Source: Bacteroidota bacterium (lineage in GTDB: Bacteria > Bacteroidota > Bacteroidia > Bacteroidales > F082). From it: a stretch of 64,000 bases of DNA. The position numbers and the translations under genes were made by a program. Below, piece after piece: positions 40,391-64,000 of the stretch. Where the stretch lies: assembly GCA_009773165.1 (NCBI GenBank), contig WOUZ01000005.1:62001-126000 (forward strand), given 5' to 3'. The notes beneath the pieces were generated by a model. The model was not told the origin of the DNA, did no database searches, and saw only the letters and a list, made by a program, of their open reading frames with translations. Positions within the stretch are counted from its first letter, which is position 1. The number at the start of each line of letters is the position of its first letter.

Positions 40391-40398
40391 TAATTTTG
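40391..40398 (+). promoter_or_regulatory. -7 box TAATTTTG before the FMN riboswitch
   Basis: Consensus box six bases upstream of the P1 stem, so the transcript would begin almost exactly with the riboswitch. Confidence 0.55.
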
Positions 40399-40403
40399 CA
40401 ACG

Positions 40404-40527
40404 TATTCTTCAGGGCAGGGTGAAATTCCCGATCGGCGGTTAAAGTCCGCGACTCTTGCTGGAAACAGCAGGATTGAGCCGGTGTAAATCCGGAACCGAC
40501 AGTTAAAGTCTGGATGGAAGAAGAATA
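40404..40527 (+). ncRNA. FMN riboswitch (RFN element)
   Basis: All conserved RFN blocks are present in order: CAGGGCAGGGTGAAATTCCC, the CGGCGGTTAAAGTCCGCGA hairpin, a variable hairpin (40456-40472), GAGCCGGTGTAAATCCGG, ACCGACAGTTAAAGTC and TGGATGGAAGAAGA. The P1 stem is TATTCTTC (40404-40411) with GAAGAATA (40520-40527). It binds flavin mononucleotide and normally represses riboflavin synthesis or uptake genes. Here the downstream gene is a TonB-dependent receptor. Confidence 0.97.
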
Positions 40528-40588
40528 ACCAATGGCAAAGTCATACAACACGATTTATAATCGGTTGTGTGTTATGTTGTAATACACC

Positions 40589-40656
40589 TCTTCTTCAATT
40601 GGAGATGTGTTGTTTGGTTTTCGTCATCAGCCCTGAATAAGACGCAGGGTTTTTTT
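40589..40656 (+). promoter_or_regulatory. Expression platform with terminator hairpin
   Basis: TCTTCTTC (40589-40596) can pair with GAAGAAGA (40517-40524) of the aptamer's P1 3' arm, offering an alternative fold. The stem CCCTG (40631-40635) with CAGGG (40645-40649) is followed by seven T (40650-40656), an intrinsic terminator 20 bases before the ATG. The switching model is inference. Confidence 0.6.
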
Positions 40657-40676
40657 ATGACTTAAATCAAAAAGAT

Positions 40677-43247
40677 ATGAAACGTATTGCACTCGTTTTA
40701 TTGCTATCTGTCAGTCATTTAGCAGTCTTATCACAAGAAATCATCCGGGGAAAAGTAGTTGAATCTGTCACTGGCTTACCTATTCAGGGTGTCCACATTC
40801 AACAAAAAGGTAATTTGACCGGTGTAGTCACAAACACCGAAGGTAACTTTGAAGTACTATTTGACACTTATCCTAAAACACTTTTTATTAGTTTTATTGG
40901 ATACGAGCCAAAAGAAATGTTGTTTACTGAACCTCAAAAGGATGAGCGACTTATAATTGAACTTAACGAGGTTCCAATAAATCTTGAAGAAGTTACAATC
41001 CTTTCTGATCAGGCAGTAGAAAGATACAACCCTATCTCATTCAGCACTTTCCACAAAGAACAGATAATAACCACATTAGGAGACAAACCCCTGCCCGAGG
41101 TTTTGAACTTCTCACCCGGTATTTTTGCCTCCCGTGATGGTGGGGGATCGGGAGATGCTACCCTCAGTGTAAGAGGTTTTCAACAAGAAAATATTGCTGT
41201 TTTACTGAATGGAATTCCAATAAACGGTGCTGAAAATGGCTTGGTTTATTGGAATAATTGGATGGGACTGGCTGAAATTACGAATTCAATTCAAATCCAA
41301 AGAGGCATAGGAGCTTCAAAAGTTGCTCTTAATTCCGTTGGAGGAACGATAAACTTAAACACACAAAACGCACATCCTGAGCGGGGTGGCACATTGAACT
41401 ACACTACGACTAATTATGGAAATCAAAAATTCAGTTTAAGTTATCACAGCGGCATAACTGAAAAAGGTTGGGCGTTTTCGTTTTTAGGGTCAAGGACAAA
41501 AGGTGATGGATATGTTGATGGAACATATGTTGATGGCTGGGCGTATTTTTTTAATGTCACAAAAGAAATAAGTCAGCGTCAGCGGATTGTTTTCACACTT
41601 TTGGGAGGTCCTGAAAGGCATGGACAAAGAAACCTCAAACTTAGCAAAGAGGAAGTTGACAGGTATGGAACAACTTACAACAAAGAGTGGGGCGTTTTTC
41701 AAGGCGAGGTGAGAAACAGTTCTGAAAATTTTTACCACAAACCCCACGCTGCTCTAAGTCATTATCTAACTCATGGCAAAGAAGGAATTTTAGCAACTTC
41801 GGTATATTTTTCTCCGGGCAAAGGTGGTGGAAAATGGAACGACAACTTTGGTTATGAAGCCAACTTATTTTCGTTTCGCGATAATGCAGGCCAAATTGAC
41901 TGGGATGCCATTTACCAATACAATGTTACAAACCCTGATACTTTTTTGCTTGCAAATGGCGAAAAAGTGCATGGCTACAGTAAAATCGTACAAACTAATT
42001 TTCTTGCAAGTCATATTTGGGCTGGTTTCATTTCAAATTTTGAAATTAAAATTACACCAGGCACAAAGTTAATAACTGGCGTACATTATCGGTATTTTAG
42101 TTCTGATCTCAAACAGGAAGTAGCCGATCTGTTGGGCGGTAAGTTTTATCTTGATGATTACAGCTGGTCGCTCGCCGGCGTTTCAGGAAGAGATCAACTA
42201 AAAATGCCGGGTGATGTTGTACGCGTTCAAAACGGGGCATTGATGCACCAAACAACTCTATTTTCGCAAATAGAGAAAAAAGCAGGTGTTTTTGATCTTT
42301 TTGCGGCAGTGAGTATTTCTGACAATAGATTTCGCCGGCATGACATTTATAATTATCCTGCAAACAAATGGAGCAAATGGGTAAGTAAGCCAGGTTTTGA
42401 TTTTAAAGCAGGAATAGGTTATCCTATTACTGATCAGCAACATATATTTGTTAATGCAGCTTATTTCAGTAAAGCTCCTTATTACAAATTCATTTTTGGT
42501 AATTTTAATAACAATCCGGTTTTAAACATTCGTAATGAAAAAGTTAAAACAATCGAAACGGGTTACCAATTGCAAAACGAACGATTAAATGTACGCATGT
42601 CGGCATATCTTACCTCCTGGGAAGATGTTTCATTTTTGTCAAATGAATACATACAGCTCGAAAACTCATCACAAACACGTGCTATGGTAAGTGGATTAAA
42701 TTCACTTCATAAAGGCATAGAAATAGAGAGTAATTATTTAATAATAAATGGTTTAACAATAAATGGAATCGCTTCATTAGGTGATTGGCAATGGCAAAAC
42801 GATGTTGCAGCTACACTTTTTAATGAAAGAGATATTGCCGTAGACACAGTAAATGTATTTGCAAAAGGACTTAAAGTGGGTGGACAGCCACAGCTGCAGT
42901 TGGGCTTAAGTATGGAAGCAAAGCTAATGAATTTATTGATGATTAAACTTGAGCTTATGCATTATGAAAAACACTATGCTCAGTTTGATCCATCAGGCCG
43001 ACAAGATGAGAATGACAAGTCTCAATCTTATCAACTTCCTTCTGTTACTCTCGTAAATTTATCATATTGCTTACCGATATCCATTGTTGATCAAAGACTT
43101 ATCTTTTATGGCAATATTAATAATATGCTAGATCAACAGTATATATTAAAAGGAGAAGATGGAATTAATCACGATTTAGCAAGCTTTCGTGGGTTCTGGG
43201 GATTTGGCAGAACCTTTGACATTGGCCTCCGTTTTGAGTTCAATTAA
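40677..43247 (+). CDS. TonB-dependent receptor under FMN riboswitch control (candidate flavin importer)
   Basis: 856 residues. A signal peptide ending ~VLSQ is followed by a CarboxypepD-reg-like domain (~20-105; IIRGKVVESVTGLPIQGVHI, FISFIGYEP), a plug domain (~120-230; LPEVLNFSPGIFASR, LSVRGFQQENIAVLLNGIPING) and a ~620-residue beta-barrel ending in RFEFN. Such receptors import scarce large nutrients through the outer membrane with TonB energy. The FMN riboswitch directly upstream makes riboflavin, FMN or FAD the likely substrate. There is no SusD-like partner and no inner-membrane transporter next to it. The gene stands alone as a monocistronic unit. Confidence 0.85.
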   Translation: MKRIALVLLLSVSHLAVLSQEIIRGKVVESVTGLPIQGVHIQQKGNLTGVVTNTEGNFEVLFDTYPKTLFISFIGYEPKEMLFTEPQKDERLIIELNEVPINLEEVTILSDQAVERYNPISFSTFHKEQIITTLGDKPLPEVLNFSPGIFASRDGGGSGDATLSVRGFQQENIAVLLNGIPINGAENGLVYWNNWMGLAEITNSIQIQRGIGASKVALNSVGGTINLNTQNAHPERGGTLNYTTTNYGNQKFSLSYHSGITEKGWAFSFLGSRTKGDGYVDGTYVDGWAYFFNVTKEISQRQRIVFTLLGGPERHGQRNLKLSKEEVDRYGTTYNKEWGVFQGEVRNSSENFYHKPHAALSHYLTHGKEGILATSVYFSPGKGGGKWNDNFGYEANLFSFRDNAGQIDWDAIYQYNVTNPDTFLLANGEKVHGYSKIVQTNFLASHIWAGFISNFEIKITPGTKLITGVHYRYFSSDLKQEVADLLGGKFYLDDYSWSLAGVSGRDQLKMPGDVVRVQNGALMHQTTLFSQIEKKAGVFDLFAAVSISDNRFRRHDIYNYPANKWSKWVSKPGFDFKAGIGYPITDQQHIFVNAAYFSKAPYYKFIFGNFNNNPVLNIRNEKVKTIETGYQLQNERLNVRMSAYLTSWEDVSFLSNEYIQLENSSQTRAMVSGLNSLHKGIEIESNYLIINGLTINGIASLGDWQWQNDVAATLFNERDIAVDTVNVFAKGLKVGGQPQLQLGLSMEAKLMNLLMIKLELMHYEKHYAQFDPSGRQDENDKSQSYQLPSVTLVNLSYCLPISIVDQRLIFYGNINNMLDQQYILKGEDGINHDLASFRGFWGFGRTFDIGLRFEFN

Positions 43248-43551
43248 GTTGTAAAATAATAATCTCATATTGAAACAATTGCACCAAAAAGCATGTTAAA
43301 AAACTCACAAAATTTATAGAAAAATCAGGCACTTTTTGAACCAGAAATGAAACGCTTAACATTGATAAAAAATGTTAAAAAAATTATACACATTTTATTA
43401 ACAGTCCTTAACTTTTATGTAATTGATTTAATGACACTTAAGCCATGTTTACTAAAAATATCAATTAATGTTAACAATTACTTAATCGAATAAAAGTCGA
43501 ATTATAATACTTTTGCCGCCATAATCACTTTATTAACCAAATTGCCTTACT
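43248..43551. other. 304-base spacer between two TonB receptor genes
   Basis: Very AT-rich, with several TTAA stretches. The only recognisable element is the -7 box at 43508-43515. No terminator with a clear T-run follows the first receptor. Confidence 0.4.
43508..43515 (+). promoter_or_regulatory. -7 box TACTTTTG of the Oar-type receptor
   Basis: Consensus TAnnTTTG 36 bases before the ATG at 43552. Confidence 0.5.
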
Positions 43552-46500
43552 ATGAAAAAGAGTTATCTTTTAAGTTTGCTGTCAGTTTTAATGATTTTTG
43601 GCTGGCATGCTGTAATGGGTCAGGGCTCAACCAGTTCAGCTATGAACGGCCGTGTTGAATCTACCAACAAAGAATCGCTTCCAGGTGCAACTATTGTTGC
43701 TGTGCATCAACCTTCAGGAACTATTTATGCTACTATTTCCAATGAAGAAGGACGTTACATCATCAATAATATGCGTATTGGTGGTCCATACAAAGTAACA
43801 GTTTCTTTTATTGGATTTAAAGAACAAGTTCAGGACAACGTAATGTTGAGCCTCGGTGTTGCTGCAAACTTAAATTTTAAACTATCCGAAGCTTCAACAG
43901 AGCTTTCTGAGATTGTCGTCGTTTCCAACAGAAACGACGTTTTTAGTTCTGACAGAACCGGAGCTGCAGCTTCTTTTAATCAGAACAACATTATGACAAT
44001 GCCAACGATTGGTCGTACCATCAATGACATTTTGACCTATAATGCTTATGGTAACGGTAGATCTTTTGCCGGACAAGACACACGTTTCAATAGCTTTACT
44101 ATTGACGGTTCAGTTTTCAACAACGGATTTGGTTTAGGTAGTTCATCACAGGCTGGTGGTCGTACTGGTACAACTGCAGTTTCTTTGGACGCTCTTGAAG
44201 AAATTCAGCTGAATATTGCGCCTTTTGACGTTCGTCAATCAGGTTTTGGTGGTGCTAGCATCAACGCAGTAACACGTTCAGGGACCAACGCATTCACAGG
44301 AACTGGTTATTTTCTTTTTAGAAATGATGGTATTGCCGGAAATAAAGTTGCCGGTAAAGAGCTTGGAACAGTCAATATTGACGAAAAAACCTTTGGTTTG
44401 AGTATTGGTGGTCCAATCATCAAAAACAAATTATTCTTCTTCCTTAATGCTGAGCAATTTACAAGCAGCGTTCCTGCTTTGGACTGGGTTCTTGATAAAC
44501 CAGGTGCAACTGGAAACGTTTCACGTACCACTCTAGCTGACATGCAGGACCTTAGCACATTTATGAGTAGTAAATTTGGATTTGACCTTGGCGCTTTAGA
44601 TGGTTTTAACAATGAAGTTAGCAGTAAAAAGTTCCTCGTTCGTTTGGATTACAACATCAATACCAAGAACAAACTTTCCGTACGCTATTCACACCACGAT
44701 TCAAAAGCTGATCAACGTATCAGTGATAGCAACAGTAGTAATACTGCAGGAAACGGTAACCGTACCAACCGTGCAGACGCCATTTCTCCTCAAAATACTG
44801 GTTACATCATCCAGGATAACACACGTTCAATCGCTGTGGAGTTAAACTCAACTGTAAACTCAAAACTCTTCAATAATTTTATTGCAACTTACAATAAACA
44901 AATTGAAGACCGCGATTATCGTACTGATGTCTTCCCAACTATTGACATTCTTTCAGCTGCAGGTGAAGCAACTTATACTTCAATTGGTTTCGATCCTTTT
45001 ACTCCATCTAACCAATTGAACTATTCAACACTAAACCTTACCGACAACATCACCTATTTCTCTGGAAAACATACAATTAATGCTGGTGTTTCTTACGAGT
45101 ATTACAAATCAAACAACGTCTTCTTCCCATCATCAAATGGCGTGTATGTTTATAACTCGATTGAAGATTTTAAATTAGCTGCTCAAGCTTATATTGACGA
45201 TCCAACCAATCCTGTTTCACCAGTAACTTTGGCTAAATATAACCTCAGATATTCAAGACTTCCTGATGGTGCAGATCCACTTCAGGTACTGAAAGTTTCG
45301 ACATTCAGTGCATATGTTCAAGATGAATATCAAGCAACTCCAAATCTTATGCTCACTTTAGGCTTAAGAGCTGATATTTTTGACTACAATGATGGAACTG
45401 CTGAAGAGTTTTATAACCCTATCATTGATACAATGGTATTCAAAGATGAAAACGGAGATAACTATCATTTGAACACAGGTGCTTTCCCTAAAACAAAGCT
45501 GTTGTTATCACCACGTTTTGGTTTTAACTATGATGTTAAAGGTGACAAAACCGTTCAAATTCGTGGAGGTAGTGGTATTTTTGTATCACGTATTCCACAG
45601 GTACTTGTTTCAAATCAACTTGGAAACAACGGTATCAACACAGGTTTGATCAGTGTATCTAACACAACCGCATATCCATTCCGTCCGAACCCGGCAGAGT
45701 TTTTACCAGCAGTTACTCCTGACATCAGCACTTTACCAGCTTATGTTATCAACGCTACAGATGAAGACCTCAAATACCCAACTTTGTGGAAAAACAGTTT
45801 GGCTATTGACTACAAACTACCTTACGGTTTAGTTGCAACAGTTGAAGGTATGTATAACAAAACGATCCAGGGATTGCGCTACATTGATGCTAACCTTAAA
45901 GATGCAGACCGCAATTTTACCGGTCCTGACTTACGTGACAGATATCCTTCTCCACGTTTCATCAACACTAAGGTAACAAATGCATTTGTTTTGAAAAATA
46001 CCACCGAAGGTTATTCATATACCCTGACTGGTAAACTTGAAAAAACAATGGATAAGAATTTTGGTGGTTTTGTAGCATATACCTACGGTGTTGCTAAGGA
46101 CATTCAGTCTGTTGGTAGCACAGTACAAGCAAATATGCCATCAGTATATGGACAGAATTTCCTTGATTTATCTTATTCAGACAATGACCTCCGTCACAGA
46201 ATCATTGGTTATGTTAACTATCGTTTAGAATATGGTCAGAAATATGGTGGATCAACTACCTTCTCATTAGGTATGGTTTCAAACAGCGGATTTAATGTAT
46301 CTTATGTTTATGGATCTGACCTCAATGGTGATGGCCAAACCAATGACCTGCTTTATATTCCAAACAATGCAAGTGAACTTACATTTGCACCAATTATGTC
46401 AGGTGATGTTGTCAGATATACTCCTGAAGAACAAGCTGCTGCTTTCGATAAGTATGTAAGCAACAACGAATATCTTAACAGCCGTCGTGGTGATTATGCT

Positions 46501-46845
46501 GAACGTAATGGTGATGTTTTCCCATGGTTGAACAGATTCAATCTATCTATCATTCAGGACGTTTGGGTGAAAGTTGGTAAAAAAGAAGTTAAAAATAAAT
46601 TGCAATTCAGAATTGACATTCTCAATGTTGGTAATTTACTTAACAACGATTGGGGTGTAGGTTATGTAAGCACAACAACTTCTCCGTTAACCATTGCTGG
46701 TGTTAATGCTGATGGACTACCTTCCTTCAGACTTCGTACACAAAACATTGATGGAACAACCGTTCTATTGCAAGATTCATACACAAAGAGCATCACCATC
46801 GACAATGCATGGCAAGCTCAGTTTGGAATCCGCTACTCCTTCTAA
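43552..46845 (+). CDS. Oar-type TonB-dependent receptor
   Basis: 1097 residues. Signal peptide to ~GQG, carboxypeptidase-regulatory-like domain (~28-115; [34 protein letters not shown]), plug (~125-260) and a large barrel with the closing strand [11 protein letters not shown]. The [27 protein letters not shown] segment is characteristic of the Oar/OmpA-related TonB receptor group, in which the myxobacterial Oar protein exports a protease and others import peptides or proteins. Substrate unknown. Terminated strongly at 46870-46903, so it is a single-gene unit. Confidence 0.87.
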
Positions 46846-46869
46846 TCTTATAGGATAAAGATCATACAG

Positions 46870-46903
46870 AAGCACCTGGGTTTAAAATCCAGGTGCTTTT
46901 TTT
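46870..46903 (+). terminator. Terminator after the Oar-type receptor
   Basis: AGCACCTGG (46871-46879) pairs perfectly with CCAGGTGCT (46889-46897), then a T-run. It covers a GTG at 46893 that would extend the next frame. Confidence 0.92.
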
Positions 46904-46916
46904 AACTTCTGCTTCA

Positions 46917-47774
46917 ATGAAAAGACCATTTATTTTATTCTTTAATTTACTGATTTGTGTTCTTTCAACAGTAGCACAAACAGATACTACTACCCCTTCC
47001 CTCCTTTCAGAAAGGTTGAAAAGTCAGGTTTTGGTTATTGGTCACCGAGGTGGCTTTGATTCTAATTATCCTGAAAACTCCCTGGCCCTCTTCGATTTTA
47101 CAACAAATAATGGAACAAATCCAATGATAGGTCTGGAAATTGACATTCGAAAAAGCGCGACTGGATCTCTATATTTAATGCATGATCCAACTGTTAACCG
47201 CACTACAAACGGGACAGGTGATATAACACAATTACAGGATACTTATCTAAACGGGTTACAATTAAAAGACAGCAAAGGTCAATCAACGGGTCAAAAAATA
47301 CCATTATTCTCAGATCTATTGAAGAGGTATCAAAACAAACCCGTTGTATTGATGTTAGACATCAAAGGGCCAATTATAGAGGAAGTTTTGCACCTGGTTC
47401 AACAATACGAAATGGAAGAACAATGCCTCATCCTGACATTCACCCCAGAAAACACTCAGACTGCCTTGAAGCATTCCAAAAATGCAATGATCTCAACCTT
47501 AATTACATCCGAAAAAGATTTTCAAGCATTGGCAGCTTATAATGAGCATTTTACGCGAATGGCAGCTTATATCAGAAAAGATATTGATCCCCAATTATTA
47601 AAAGTGCTCATTGAGTCAAAGATTACCATCTTAACCGATGTGCTTGAGATCGATAAACAACCATTTATCCCTCATGAGGTAACTTTTTATCAAGATGTCC
47701 TTCGAAAAAACAAGGTCGCAATTCTTGTAACCGATTTCCCACAATTTGTTTCAAAACATCTTCAAGGACAATAA
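46917..47774 (+). CDS. Exported glycerophosphodiester phosphodiesterase (GDPD)
   Basis: About 285 residues from the ATG at 46917, with a signal peptide (MKRPFILFFNLLICVLSTVAQ). The GDPD TIM-barrel motifs are intact: VIGHRGGFDSNYPENS, LEIDIRKS and LMHDPTVNRTTNGTGD. The enzyme splits glycerophosphodiesters (deacylated phospholipids) into glycerol-3-phosphate and an alcohol in the periplasm. It opens a row of four exported phosphoesterases. Confidence 0.88.
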   Translation: MKRPFILFFNLLICVLSTVAQTDTTTPSLLSERLKSQVLVIGHRGGFDSNYPENSLALFDFTTNNGTNPMIGLEIDIRKSATGSLYLMHDPTVNRTTNGTGDITQLQDTYLNGLQLKDSKGQSTGQKIPLFSDLLKRYQNKPVVLMLDIKGPIIEEVLHLVQQYEMEEQCLILTFTPENTQTALKHSKNAMISTLITSEKDFQALAAYNEHFTRMAAYIRKDIDPQLLKVLIESKITILTDVLEIDKQPFIPHEVTFYQDVLRKNKVAILVTDFPQFVSKHLQGQ

Positions 47775-47811
47775 TTCTGAAATTGACAGCAAGGTATTAA
47801 GTCATAAAATG

Positions 47812-47819
47812 TATTTTTG
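47812..47819 (+). promoter_or_regulatory. -7 box TATTTTTG before the NPP-type gene
   Basis: Consensus TAnnTTTG about 40 bases upstream of the ATG at 47860; it suggests an internal promoter and favours that start over longer frames. Confidence 0.45.
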
Positions 47820-47859
47820 TATATCAATTCGAAGATTAACCACAAATCATCCGCAATTA

Positions 47860-49089
47860 ATGCAATCTTTTCAAAAATTCAGCAGTTTTACCTCTTTAAT
47901 ACTGGTTCTTGTTGTCCTTTCCTCCTGCGTTAAAAAAAGTAAAGTTGAAGACCCGATCGTTGTAATCCTTTCATTAGATGGTTTCCGATGGGATTATCCA
48001 ACCCGAACAGCCACACCTAACCTTGATTGGATGGCAGAAAATGGTGTAAAAGCAGAGCGGATGATTCCAAGCTTTCCAACCACAACATTTGCCAATCATT
48101 ATACCCTTGCTACGGGTCTTTACCCTGACCATCATGGCATTCTCGTAAATCGTTTTTACGCACTTGATCTTGATGCTGAATACAACGCGCCGGGAGAAAG
48201 AGAGACAGTTGAAGATGGCAAATTCTATGGAGGTGAGCCAATATGGGTAACAGCCGAGACTCAGCAAAAAATTACTGCAACCTGTTTCTGGGTTGGTAGT
48301 GAAGCTGATGTTAAAGGTGTAAGGCCAACCTACTGGAAAAAATATGACCACGACATGACTTACAGCGACAGGATTGATACTGTAATGTATTGGCTCAGAT
48401 TGCCTGAAGAAAAACGTCCAAAACTGGTCATGTTGTATTTTGATGAACCTGACTCAAGCGGTCATGATTTTGGACCGGAAAATGACAGTCTGATGCCACT
48501 CATAACACGTCTTGACAGCCTTATAGGCGTATTTATCGCAAAAATGAATACGTTGCCTTATTCAGATCGCATCAACTTTATTGTTGTTTCGGATCATGGA
48601 ATGGCTCAACTATCGCCTGACCGTCAAATCGTTCTGGATCAAACCGTTGATACCAGCTTGATTGAACTGGTTGATGGCTGGAATCCAACAATGAACATAA
48701 AAGCGAAAGATGGCAAAATTGATGAACTGCTTGAACAACTTAAATCCATTCCACATTTAAAAGTATGGAAGCATGGTGAAGCACCCGAGCATTTAAATCA
48801 TTCAACCCATATAAGAACACATGACATGACGCTATTAGCCGAAGATGGATGGAGTATAAATTGGTCATGGATGAAATCATACTCCAAAGGAACACATGGC
48901 TATGATTTTCGAAATACGGATGTAAATGCTATTTTTTATGCAGTAGGCCCCGATTTCAAATCGAATTATGCAAAAAAACCATTCAAAAACATACATGTGT
49001 ATCCGTTATTGGCCCATTTGCTCAAATTGAAGCCAGCCCCGGTGGATGGACATTTTGATTCCATATCAGATGTTTTAAAAAACTATTAA
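47860..49089 (+). CDS. NPP-type nucleotide pyrophosphatase/phosphodiesterase lipoprotein
   Basis: About 409 residues. The signal ends in the lipobox LSSC (Cys23). The alkaline phosphatase-superfamily core has ILSLDGFRWDY (metal Asp), SFPTTTFANHYTLATGLYPDHHG (catalytic Thr), YFDEPDSSGHDFGP, VVSDHGMA and KGTHGYDF, matching ecto-nucleotide pyrophosphatase/phosphodiesterases. These release nucleoside monophosphates from nucleotides or hydrolyse phosphodiesters of lysophospholipids. It begins 85 bases after the GDPD gene. Confidence 0.9.
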   Translation: MQSFQKFSSFTSLILVLVVLSSCVKKSKVEDPIVVILSLDGFRWDYPTRTATPNLDWMAENGVKAERMIPSFPTTTFANHYTLATGLYPDHHGILVNRFYALDLDAEYNAPGERETVEDGKFYGGEPIWVTAETQQKITATCFWVGSEADVKGVRPTYWKKYDHDMTYSDRIDTVMYWLRLPEEKRPKLVMLYFDEPDSSGHDFGPENDSLMPLITRLDSLIGVFIAKMNTLPYSDRINFIVVSDHGMAQLSPDRQIVLDQTVDTSLIELVDGWNPTMNIKAKDGKIDELLEQLKSIPHLKVWKHGEAPEHLNHSTHIRTHDMTLLAEDGWSINWSWMKSYSKGTHGYDFRNTDVNAIFYAVGPDFKSNYAKKPFKNIHVYPLLAHLLKLKPAPVDGHFDSISDVLKNY

Positions 49090-49113
49090 GTGACATTTTT
49101 AAGATTTAAGAAA

Positions 49114-50442
49114 ATGAAAAAGACTTTAGCCGCATTCGTTGTCACACTAATATTCTTACAAATCAGTACCTTAGCTCAACATCCCTTGTTGCAATCAGGT
49201 CCAATGCCTGGTTATTCAGATATGCGGGAGGTCATGATATGGGTGCAAACAAATAAAGAAGCAAAAGTGCAGCTTTTCTATCAGGCAATTGACAAAAGCG
49301 ATATACAAAGGAGGACAGAAATCGTTTATACCAATAAAGAAATGGCTTTCACTGCACATCTTATCGCTGATACGGTTGAACCCGGCAAACGCTACACATA
49401 TGAGTTGCTTATAAATGATGGTGTAGTAAAATTTCCCTACCCAACTGAATTTCAAACTCAAAAAATTTGGAAGTGGAGAGGTAACCCACCTGAATTCAGT
49501 ATGTTAACTGGTAGCTGTGCCTACATAAATCAGCCGGAGCATGATCGGCCAGGAACTCCTTACGGTGGCGACTATCGCATTTTTGAGAATATGGCTACAC
49601 ATAAGACGGATTTCATGCTTTGGCTTGGTGACAATGTCTACTTACGCGAGCCGGACTGGAATACACAAACAGGCATCTTTGCTCGTTATACTCATAGTAG
49701 GTCTATTAAAGAAATGCAGCCCTTCTTAGCATCCACACATCATTATGCCATATGGGATGATCACGATTATGGTCCAAATGACAGCGATAGAGGATTCTTC
49801 AACAAAGAACAAACACTTAAAGCATTTGAAGCATTTTGGGGAAACCCAACTTATGGAGTAAGTGACCTTAAAGGTGCAATAACAAGTTTTCAATGGGGTG
49901 ATGCTGATTTTTTCCTTTTGGATAATCGTTGGTATCGCGATCCGGATTTCATTCAAAAACCAGAAAAGACATTACTTGGAAAGCAACAATTGCAGTGGTT
50001 GTTCGACAATCTTGTTTCAAGTACAGCTACGTTTAAAATTGTGGCTCTCGGAGGTCAGTTTTTGAGTACAGCCAAAAGGTATGAAACTTATGCAGCCAAT
50101 GGATTTGACACTGAGCGTCAGCAAATTATTGATTTTATACAAAAACATGCCATCAAAAATGTCATTTTTTTAACCGGAGATGTTCATTTCACTGAGATGT
50201 CGGTACTTAAAGAGGAAGCCAAACCAACAATCTGGGATTTAACGTTCTCTACTATGTCGGCAGGACCTAACAGCAGAGGTGGCGAATGGGAAAATGAGTT
50301 TCGTGTTCCGGGAACAGTAGTTACATCAAGGAATTTTGGGAAGATAGCTTTCCGCGGACCTTTAAAGAAGAGAGAATTGGTTGTTCAATGCTATGATACA
50401 GATAATGTACTTCAGTGGGAACGAATTATCAATGAAGAATAA
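49114..50442 (+). CDS. PhoD-type alkaline phosphatase/phosphodiesterase
   Basis: About 442 residues with signal peptide (MKKTLAAFVVTLIFLQISTLAQ). An N-terminal Fn3-like part (MREVMIWVQTNKEAKVQLFYQ...GKRYTYELLIND) precedes a PhoD-like metallophosphatase with LTGSCAYI, MLWLGDNVYLRE, AIWDDHDYGPNDSD and FLTGDVHFTEM. PhoD enzymes release phosphate from mono- and diesters. The ATG at 49114 is preferred over a GTG at 49090 next to the preceding stop. The gap to the NPP-type gene is 24 bases. Confidence 0.88.
   Translation: MKKTLAAFVVTLIFLQISTLAQHPLLQSGPMPGYSDMREVMIWVQTNKEAKVQLFYQAIDKSDIQRRTEIVYTNKEMAFTAHLIADTVEPGKRYTYELLINDGVVKFPYPTEFQTQKIWKWRGNPPEFSMLTGSCAYINQPEHDRPGTPYGGDYRIFENMATHKTDFMLWLGDNVYLREPDWNTQTGIFARYTHSRSIKEMQPFLASTHHYAIWDDHDYGPNDSDRGFFNKEQTLKAFEAFWGNPTYGVSDLKGAITSFQWGDADFFLLDNRWYRDPDFIQKPEKTLLGKQQLQWLFDNLVSSTATFKIVALGGQFLSTAKRYETYAANGFDTERQQIIDFIQKHAIKNVIFLTGDVHFTEMSVLKEEAKPTIWDLTFSTMSAGPNSRGGEWENEFRVPGTVVTSRNFGKIAFRGPLKKRELVVQCYDTDNVLQWERIINEE

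Positions 50443-60637: not shown

Positions 60638-64000
<3,363 letters not shown>

Follow-up and report, generated by a model that had tools for sequence, protein, structure and literature searches.

The 64,000-nucleotide stretch analysed here (the window; positions 62,001 to 126,000 of contig WOUZ01000005.1, assembly GCA_009773165.1) comes from a Bacteroidota bacterium of the order Bacteroidales, family F082, and contains a flavin mononucleotide (FMN) riboswitch followed by a gene for a TonB-dependent receptor, which we named TBDR1. As an FMN switch appears to control TBDR1 in genomes that lack the genes for vitamin B2 synthesis, TBDR1 is probably an outer-membrane importer of vitamin B2. More precisely, the comparison of sequences makes it very likely that TBDR1 is a TonB-energised outer-membrane receptor for riboflavin (or for FMN or flavin adenine dinucleotide, FAD), with an FMN-switched leader, in a host that is unable to make riboflavin. 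A flavin importer is strongly supported by the comparison of genomes. What the computations show directly is the riboswitch, an alternative pairing open to its leader, the fold of the receptor, the absence of the synthesis genes while RibF is retained, and the association across many genomes.

The aptamer, an RFN element (RF00050), lies at 40402-40529 on the forward strand. The covariance-model match scored 115.3 bits against a gathering score of 66.2 (E 3.6e-26, computed for the 64 kb window) and was full length, spanning all 138 model positions (1-138 of 138). The first-pass annotation of this DNA had placed the element at 40404-40527, which agrees within a few bases. No second RF00050 match was found in the own genome, which is 98.85% complete in 40 contigs. 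Directly 5' of the aptamer, the sequence TAATTTTG (40391-40398, forward strand) reads as a promoter box of the form TAnnTTTG, the consensus of the Bacteroidota -7 box. Such a box stands beside the aptamer in 58 of the 65 loci compared (own and relatives), within a 28-nt stretch whose end falls just within the aptamer start, versus 1.3% of random 28-nt stretches from the same loci. An intrinsic-terminator-like hairpin with a T-run follows on the same strand at 40629-40656; the folding energy of 40622-40662 was -12.2 kcal/mol, and none of 200 shuffled sequences was equally stable. The box and the terminator that had been read from the letters alone were thus both borne out. The TBDR1 gene itself (40677-43247, forward strand) encodes 856 residues. 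The annotation had also counted one gene behind the switch, and this seems reasonable from the sequence, as the next gene, a large receptor-like one, starts at 43552 and has its own TAnnTTTG box at 43508-43515.

By Pfam, TBDR1 carries a CarbopepD_reg_2 (carboxypeptidase-regulatory-like) domain and a TonB Plug domain (PF07715, 42.6 bits against a cut-off of 23.9), while no Pfam barrel family matched. Its AlphaFold2 model (predicted local distance difference test, pLDDT, 84.7; predicted template-modelling score, pTM, 0.79) aligned to BtuB, FecA and YncD over 520-619 residues, which suggests a plug-barrel fold. The structural neighbours returned by Foldseek and VIA-align were TonB-dependent transporters. 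Foldseek placed PqqU/YncD, the receptor for pyrroloquinoline quinone (PQQ), at ranks 1 and 2 (9c4o, 6v81), and in VIA-align BtuB came first, narrowly ahead of FecA, YncD and siderophore receptors. The best match of a sequence search against the PDB, 9gbc_A, covered the N-terminal part only. By the Plug domain and the predicted outer-membrane beta-barrel, TBDR1 can be classed as a TonB-dependent transporter. No NCBIfam name reached its own cut-off with TBDR1. Membership of the SusC/RagA family was rejected (TIGR04056, 50.7 bits against 368.25, N-terminal part only), as was that of the BtuB family (TIGR01779, 35.4 against 599.7 bits; NF007926, 37.3 against 836 bits). The Plug domain and the predicted plug-barrel fold also contradict a known inner-membrane riboflavin carrier type (RibU, RibN, RibM), a judgement made from fold and domain, the carriers not having been compared by sequence.

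The pairing of switch and receptor was followed in 119 genomes, comprising the own genome and others of the same genus, family and order. Under strict filters, 65 of these (own included) had one FMN riboswitch each. TBDR1 stood behind the switch in 51 of the 65 and riboflavin-synthesis genes in the remaining 14, which were led by ribD in 12 cases (in G015 by broken pieces only) and by ribB or ribBA in two. A protein match placed a TBDR1 homologue directly behind the switch in 50 of the 65, own included; in the 51st genome, G016, the contig ends just after the gene start and the receptor is on another contig. The identity to the own TBDR1 (blastp) was 37-62% in the other loci, the lowest value belonging to a fragment. 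A TBDR1 profile was built from the proteins of 42 of the 51 genomes, leaving out broken or contig-cut genes and L032, for which no start was found. It scored over 1000 bits in 50 of the 119 genomes, and the related TBDR2 genes reached at most 834 bits. TBDR1 and TBDR2 are distinct subfamilies, with mean identities of 48% and 52% within and 33% between them. W387, W497, R505, R668 and W706 are among the residues by which TBDR1 differs from TBDR2. The 50 genomes were 48 of the switch-TBDR1 genomes together with G002 and G053. In total 53 of the 119 genomes were counted as having TBDR1, two of them with no switch detected: G053 truly lacks it, and in G002 the contig ends inside the gene.

The same profile matched 31 of 393 genomes of the order with E at most 1e-250; 28 of these 31 genomes were new, and TBDR1 is present in 14 families of the order in all. 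The switch lay upstream of TBDR1 in 26 of the 28 further genomes, and the other two genes were at contig ends. A covariance model, R1, was built from 20 of the aptamers and run on 80 contigs, all from metagenome-assembled genomes; two were labelled Lentimicrobium sp. and most others Bacteroidales or Bacteroidetes. R1 found the switch in 74 of the 80 (once partially, at a contig end), hits that are not independent, as the loci behind the model are like those searched. Five of the six negative contigs were cut at the contig end, and the sixth (L121), by its length of 4990 the G053 contig, lacks the switch. These results indicated that a cofactor riboswitch directly upstream of TBDR1 is conserved across its orthologues, with G053 as the exception. 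The first-pass annotation had called for a search of orthologous receptors for the RFN element and would have taken its absence from most of them as counting against the proposal; the outcome was the opposite, with the switch preceding TBDR1 in 51 of the 65 switch genomes and in 26 of the 28 further ones. Elsewhere in the phylum, FMN riboswitch matches occurred in 28 of 394 other genomes (29 of 395 with the own genome). These 28 genomes held 29 other loci, and within about 1.5 kb on either side no TBDR1 was found beside any of them. Homologues of ribBA or ribD were present at 28 of the 29, and the remaining locus (L204, a sub-threshold switch match) had none of the seven query proteins. As a separate observation, a stop codon splits TBDR1 into two frames in one locus of the sample (L037, genome G030).

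The genomes with TBDR1 were found to be depleted of riboflavin-synthesis genes. In the own genome there was no match to RibE (TIGR00187), RibH (PF00885) or DHBP synthase (PF00926), and for RibD (TIGR00326) only short deaminase-like matches below the cut-off; RibF was kept. For counting, RibD had to exceed its cut-off, and RibE, RibH and DHBP synthase were accepted at E up to 0.001; the counts are uncorrected for relatedness. On this basis the 51 switch-TBDR1 genomes had no RibD, RibE or DHBP synthase and one RibH (in G056). The 14 switch-rib genomes had 13 RibD, 13 RibE, 14 DHBP synthase and 14 RibH, the RibE of G015 being a sub-cut-off match and its other rib genes broken pieces, and the 54 genomes with no switch had 34, 30, 32 and 33, respectively. 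Nor was DHBP synthase (RibB) found in any of the 28 further TBDR1 genomes, in G002 or in G053. It was therefore present in none of 81 TBDR1 genomes, compared with 46 of the 66 other genomes of the 119-genome sample. A Fisher test on the tabulation gave p 1.7e-17, which ignores relatedness and is a rough guide only. The proposal of an outer-membrane flavin importer under FMN riboswitch control gains support from this distribution, as it does from the conserved switch and from the rib genes found at the same site (below). RibF was matched in 114 of the 119 genomes, and since these include all 51 switch-TBDR1 genomes, imported riboflavin could become FMN and FAD; the five genomes with no RibF were not among the 51. 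Two irregular rib loci were also seen. The ribH of G056 (C200:10032-10442) stands alone in a switch-TBDR1 genome otherwise devoid of rib markers and may be a remnant or a contamination. The rib genes behind the switch of G015 (L086) carry several in-frame stops, which points to decay or to poor assembly, the latter being considered because a PnuC gene of the same genome also has stops.

The leader offers a plausible means of switching. In the minimum-energy fold of the unliganded leader (40402-40660), the 5' strand of the aptamer, CGUAUUCUUCAGGGC (40402-40416, forward strand), pairs with GCCCUGAAUAAGACG (40630-40644) with two mismatches, and the latter contains the 5' arm of the terminator. 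The aptamer strand may thus double as the 5' arm of an antiterminator, and by computation the leader can form alternative structures, antiterminator or terminator hairpin. Covariation was consistent with this pairing. Among 91 loci (the 65 above and 26 further ones from the order), a GCCC anchor was found downstream in 78, followed by a T-run in 66 of these. The base facing a variable A/G of the aptamer gave an A-T pair in 40 loci and a G-C pair in 29 (69 of 78 matching), with three G-T wobbles and six others, and none of 500 shuffles reached the pairing observed at this base in the 65 TBDR loci among the anchored 78. Of the positions further out, five more outdid most shuffles, 0 to 14 of the 500 coming up to the observed pairing. 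The rib loci show the same switch anatomy as the TBDR1 loci. We infer the switching, the ligand, the dependence on TonB and the direction of transport as follows. At low cytoplasmic FMN, the aptamer 5' strand and the terminator 5' arm would form the antiterminator and TBDR1 would be transcribed; with plentiful FMN, the aptamer would be stabilised, the terminator hairpin would form and TBDR1 would be shut off. Once induced, TBDR1 would pull flavin across the outer membrane, and the flavin would then cross the inner membrane by a carrier and be converted by RibF into FMN and FAD.

In two relatives synthesis genes stand behind the switch at the very site where others carry the receptor. G050 and G023 share the upstream order 7TMR-HD, NlpC/P60, a small gene, thioredoxin reductase and the riboswitch. 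Behind the switch follow ribD, ribE, ribBA and ribH and then TBDR2 and a PF01663 phosphodiesterase. These flanks, whose domains were tested on the window and G050 genes, recur in many TBDR1 genomes, with TBDR1 between them where G050 and G023 carry the rib genes. The check for rib genes near the receptor site that the first-pass annotation had suggested was thus answered with a ribD-ribE-ribBA-ribH operon at the position of TBDR1. In a tree of the thioredoxin reductases (35 of 36 loci), G050 falls within a set of TBDR1 genomes (100/97 and 99/97), and two changes are required to account for the two rib loci; the place of G023 is unsure because of its long branch. The ribBA genes of G050 and G023 form one group with that of G066 (100/99). 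These trees are consistent with an older rib state that was kept or regained in scattered lineages. We consider it likely, if somewhat less so than the import function itself, that TBDR1 is the founding member of a group of FMN-riboswitch-controlled outer-membrane flavin transporters that replaced synthesis in many Bacteroidales lineages, that at one site the switch has served a synthesis operon and an import receptor by turns, and that the presence of the receptor marks riboflavin dependence.

Several observations weigh against the reading of TBDR1 as a flavin importer. Among the 54 genomes with no switch, 20 possess no more than one of the four rib markers. TBDR1 was not detected in 18 of these 20, which must either gain flavin by another route or be missing genes through incomplete assembly; some of the 20 are fragmentary, but completeness reaches 98-99% in G034, G055 and G074. 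Inheritance accounts in part for the shared lack of rib genes, since they are missing from most of the sampled members of the family to which the window belongs. No ligand of TBDR1 was singled out by the structure searches, nor can one be read from them, since Foldseek favours PqqU with PQQ and VIA-align favours BtuB. In the leader, four of ten positions beyond the anchor paired no better than shuffles, which themselves ignore relatedness. The exact GCCC anchor was missing from 13 of the 91 loci. Some of these 13 have a near match and others lack a clear terminator, so that translation may be the level of control there. The TBDR1 gene of G053 has 2.1 kb of upstream DNA with no switch. No inner-membrane flavin carrier was pinned down, RibU, RibN and other carriers not having been searched for. 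Finally, the accessible text of one report states that riboflavin can pass the E. coli outer membrane passively by porins (PMC12319065); a receptor is therefore not needed everywhere and would be of use chiefly where the supply is low or the outer membrane is tighter. Concerning G053, its TBDR1 (L209) lies some 80 nt downstream of a small crcB-like gene (by resemblance only), an arrangement that appears to reflect the loss of the control element.

Other explanations of the locus were also weighed. TBDR1 might take FMN, FAD or a carrier-bound flavin rather than free riboflavin, with a periplasmic PF01663 phosphodiesterase/nucleotide pyrophosphatase and a PhoD-like phosphatase trimming FAD to riboflavin. 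A gene of the PF01663 cluster does lie downstream in 35 of the 65 loci and a PhoD-like one in 16 (many loci being cut short), and the phosphodiesterase gene also follows the rib operon in G050 and G023. However, these genes in the window are separated from TBDR1 by a further receptor gene that has a promoter box of its own, seven TBDR2-like loci from genomes with no TBDR1 show no relative of the phosphodiesterase in the DNA examined, and the GDPD gene in the cluster of the window suggests general phosphoester use; we regard this alternative as unlikely. It is still less probable that the substrate of TBDR1 is some other nutrient, for instance a metal complex or a different cofactor, used in coordination with the flavin supply. 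Siderophore receptors are among the near folds, and according to the accessible text of a riboswitch survey, FMN riboswitches in other bacteria stand before a few genes with no evident part in flavin metabolism (PMC4418817), but the confinement of TBDR1 to genomes devoid of DHBP synthase argues against this alternative.

The riboswitch could also be a relic, left when the rib genes were deleted, with an unrelated receptor for some other substrate behind it by chance. The ribBA grouping above would fit an older riboswitch-rib state in the family, and G053 shows that the switch can be missing. Yet a simple deletion of the rib genes would have brought TBDR2, not TBDR1, to the switch, the same receptor subfamily stands behind full-length switches across 14 families, and the expression platform covaries with the aptamer. 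The relic explanation was thus rejected as hardly credible, and import of flavin by TBDR1 is preferred.

The vitamin B2 uptake systems RibU, RibM/PnuX, RibN, ImpX, RfnT, RibZ and RibXY are inner-membrane systems. They resemble the proposed role of TBDR1 in that they take up vitamin B2 and several were found via FMN riboswitches, and in the accessible text of the two sources none of them is named as an outer-membrane receptor (PMC4418817, PMC6593275). The carriers listed there as known are RibU, PnuX, ImpX, RibN, RfnT, RibZ and RibXY only (PMC6593275). The closest known system to TBDR1 by analogy appears to be OMthi (BT2390) of Bacteroides thetaiotaomicron, a TonB-dependent thiamine receptor linked to a thiamine pyrophosphate (TPP) riboswitch, for which the available part of the report gives mutant evidence (PMC5613172). 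Both are Bacteroidales TonB-dependent receptors beside a cofactor riboswitch, and OMthi imports a vitamin. They differ in the riboswitch (TPP for OMthi, FMN for TBDR1), in that no inner-membrane partner stands behind the switch at the TBDR1 locus, and in that the TBDR1 host has no synthesis genes whereas B. thetaiotaomicron keeps thiamine synthesis; the same text reports that OMthi transcripts changed little with thiamine (PMC5613172). As OMthi is a riboswitch-linked vitamin TonB receptor, the kind is known and TBDR1 adds a new vitamin; on the sequence comparisons, TBDR1 is most likely a new vitamin branch of the riboswitch-controlled TonB receptors. The Bacteroidota ribDE(BA)H operons share with it the same aptamer, a similar switch anatomy and, in two relatives, the same site, and serve synthesis, not import. 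BtuB, the cobalamin receptor, is under B12 riboswitch control; it has 15% identity to TBDR1 and another cofactor, and the NCBIfam BtuB models scored far below their cut-offs. PqqU (YncD) of E. coli is likewise a TonB-dependent receptor for a redox cofactor and took the first two Foldseek ranks, but its identity to TBDR1 is 14%, the ligand cannot be told from a rank among TonB receptors, and we know of no riboswitch for it.

An FMN riboswitch before a TonB receptor was not found in any earlier report in the literature searched, which leaves supplements and most subscription papers outside, and an earlier mention is possible. In the accessible text, the word TonB does not occur in the main text of a survey that covers 842 FMN riboswitches from 1133 genomes (PMC4418817), a regulon survey gives no FMN regulons in Bacteroidaceae (PMC3766115), a metagenome survey has nothing but rib genes behind seven RFN elements (PMC2211319), and the main text of a 2024 review of TonB-dependent substrates has no words that start with riboflavin or flavin (PMC11658791). 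The arrangement is absent from the accessible parts of these four and of PMC5613172, PMC6593275 and PMC12319065, and equally from those of PMC6041382, PMC5816637, PMC5756330, PMC12405394, PMC6615432, PMC11475020 and PMC11162775. The remark of the first-pass annotation that it knew of no characterised flavin receptor of this kind therefore held within this literature, where no flavin counterpart was found.

The passage of flavin across the outer membrane has hardly been described so far. If the proposed function is true, TBDR1 represents a testable family of outer-membrane receptors, and riboflavin dependence would be widespread in parts of the Bacteroidales; gut Bacteroidetes are described, in the accessible text of one paper, as mostly able to make all vitamins except B12 (PMC6593275). 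TBDR1 would then be a simple genomic marker for bacteria that need vitamin B2 from their neighbours, and one riboswitch would have been reused at one site for the control of making or taking the vitamin.

The region downstream of TBDR1 in the window (43552-50442) holds a cluster of the large receptor-like protein (OMP_b-brl_4), which we take to be 'Oar-like', a GDPD protein, the PF01663 phosphodiesterase and the PhoD-like phosphatase. The domains of the downstream genes were tested on the window genes and on representatives, and the cluster may possibly serve the scavenging of phosphoesters or flavin nucleotides. Among inner-membrane candidates, the PnuC family was rejected as an informative partner, being present in 102 of the 119 genomes whatever the state of the pathway, and the own PnuC gene had no Rfam riboswitch in its 6.4-kb stretch. 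A second gene of the PnuC family occurs in the nearly complete genomes G034 (L205), G055 (L206) and G074 (L207), which have neither rib markers nor an FMN riboswitch; it is perhaps another route of flavin uptake, and in L205 it has an EamA gene next to it. In L090, L091 and L094 a gene for a DUF819 membrane protein lies just upstream of the riboswitch (family-tested in L090, assigned by clustering in the others), and its product is a possible candidate for the inner-membrane partner.

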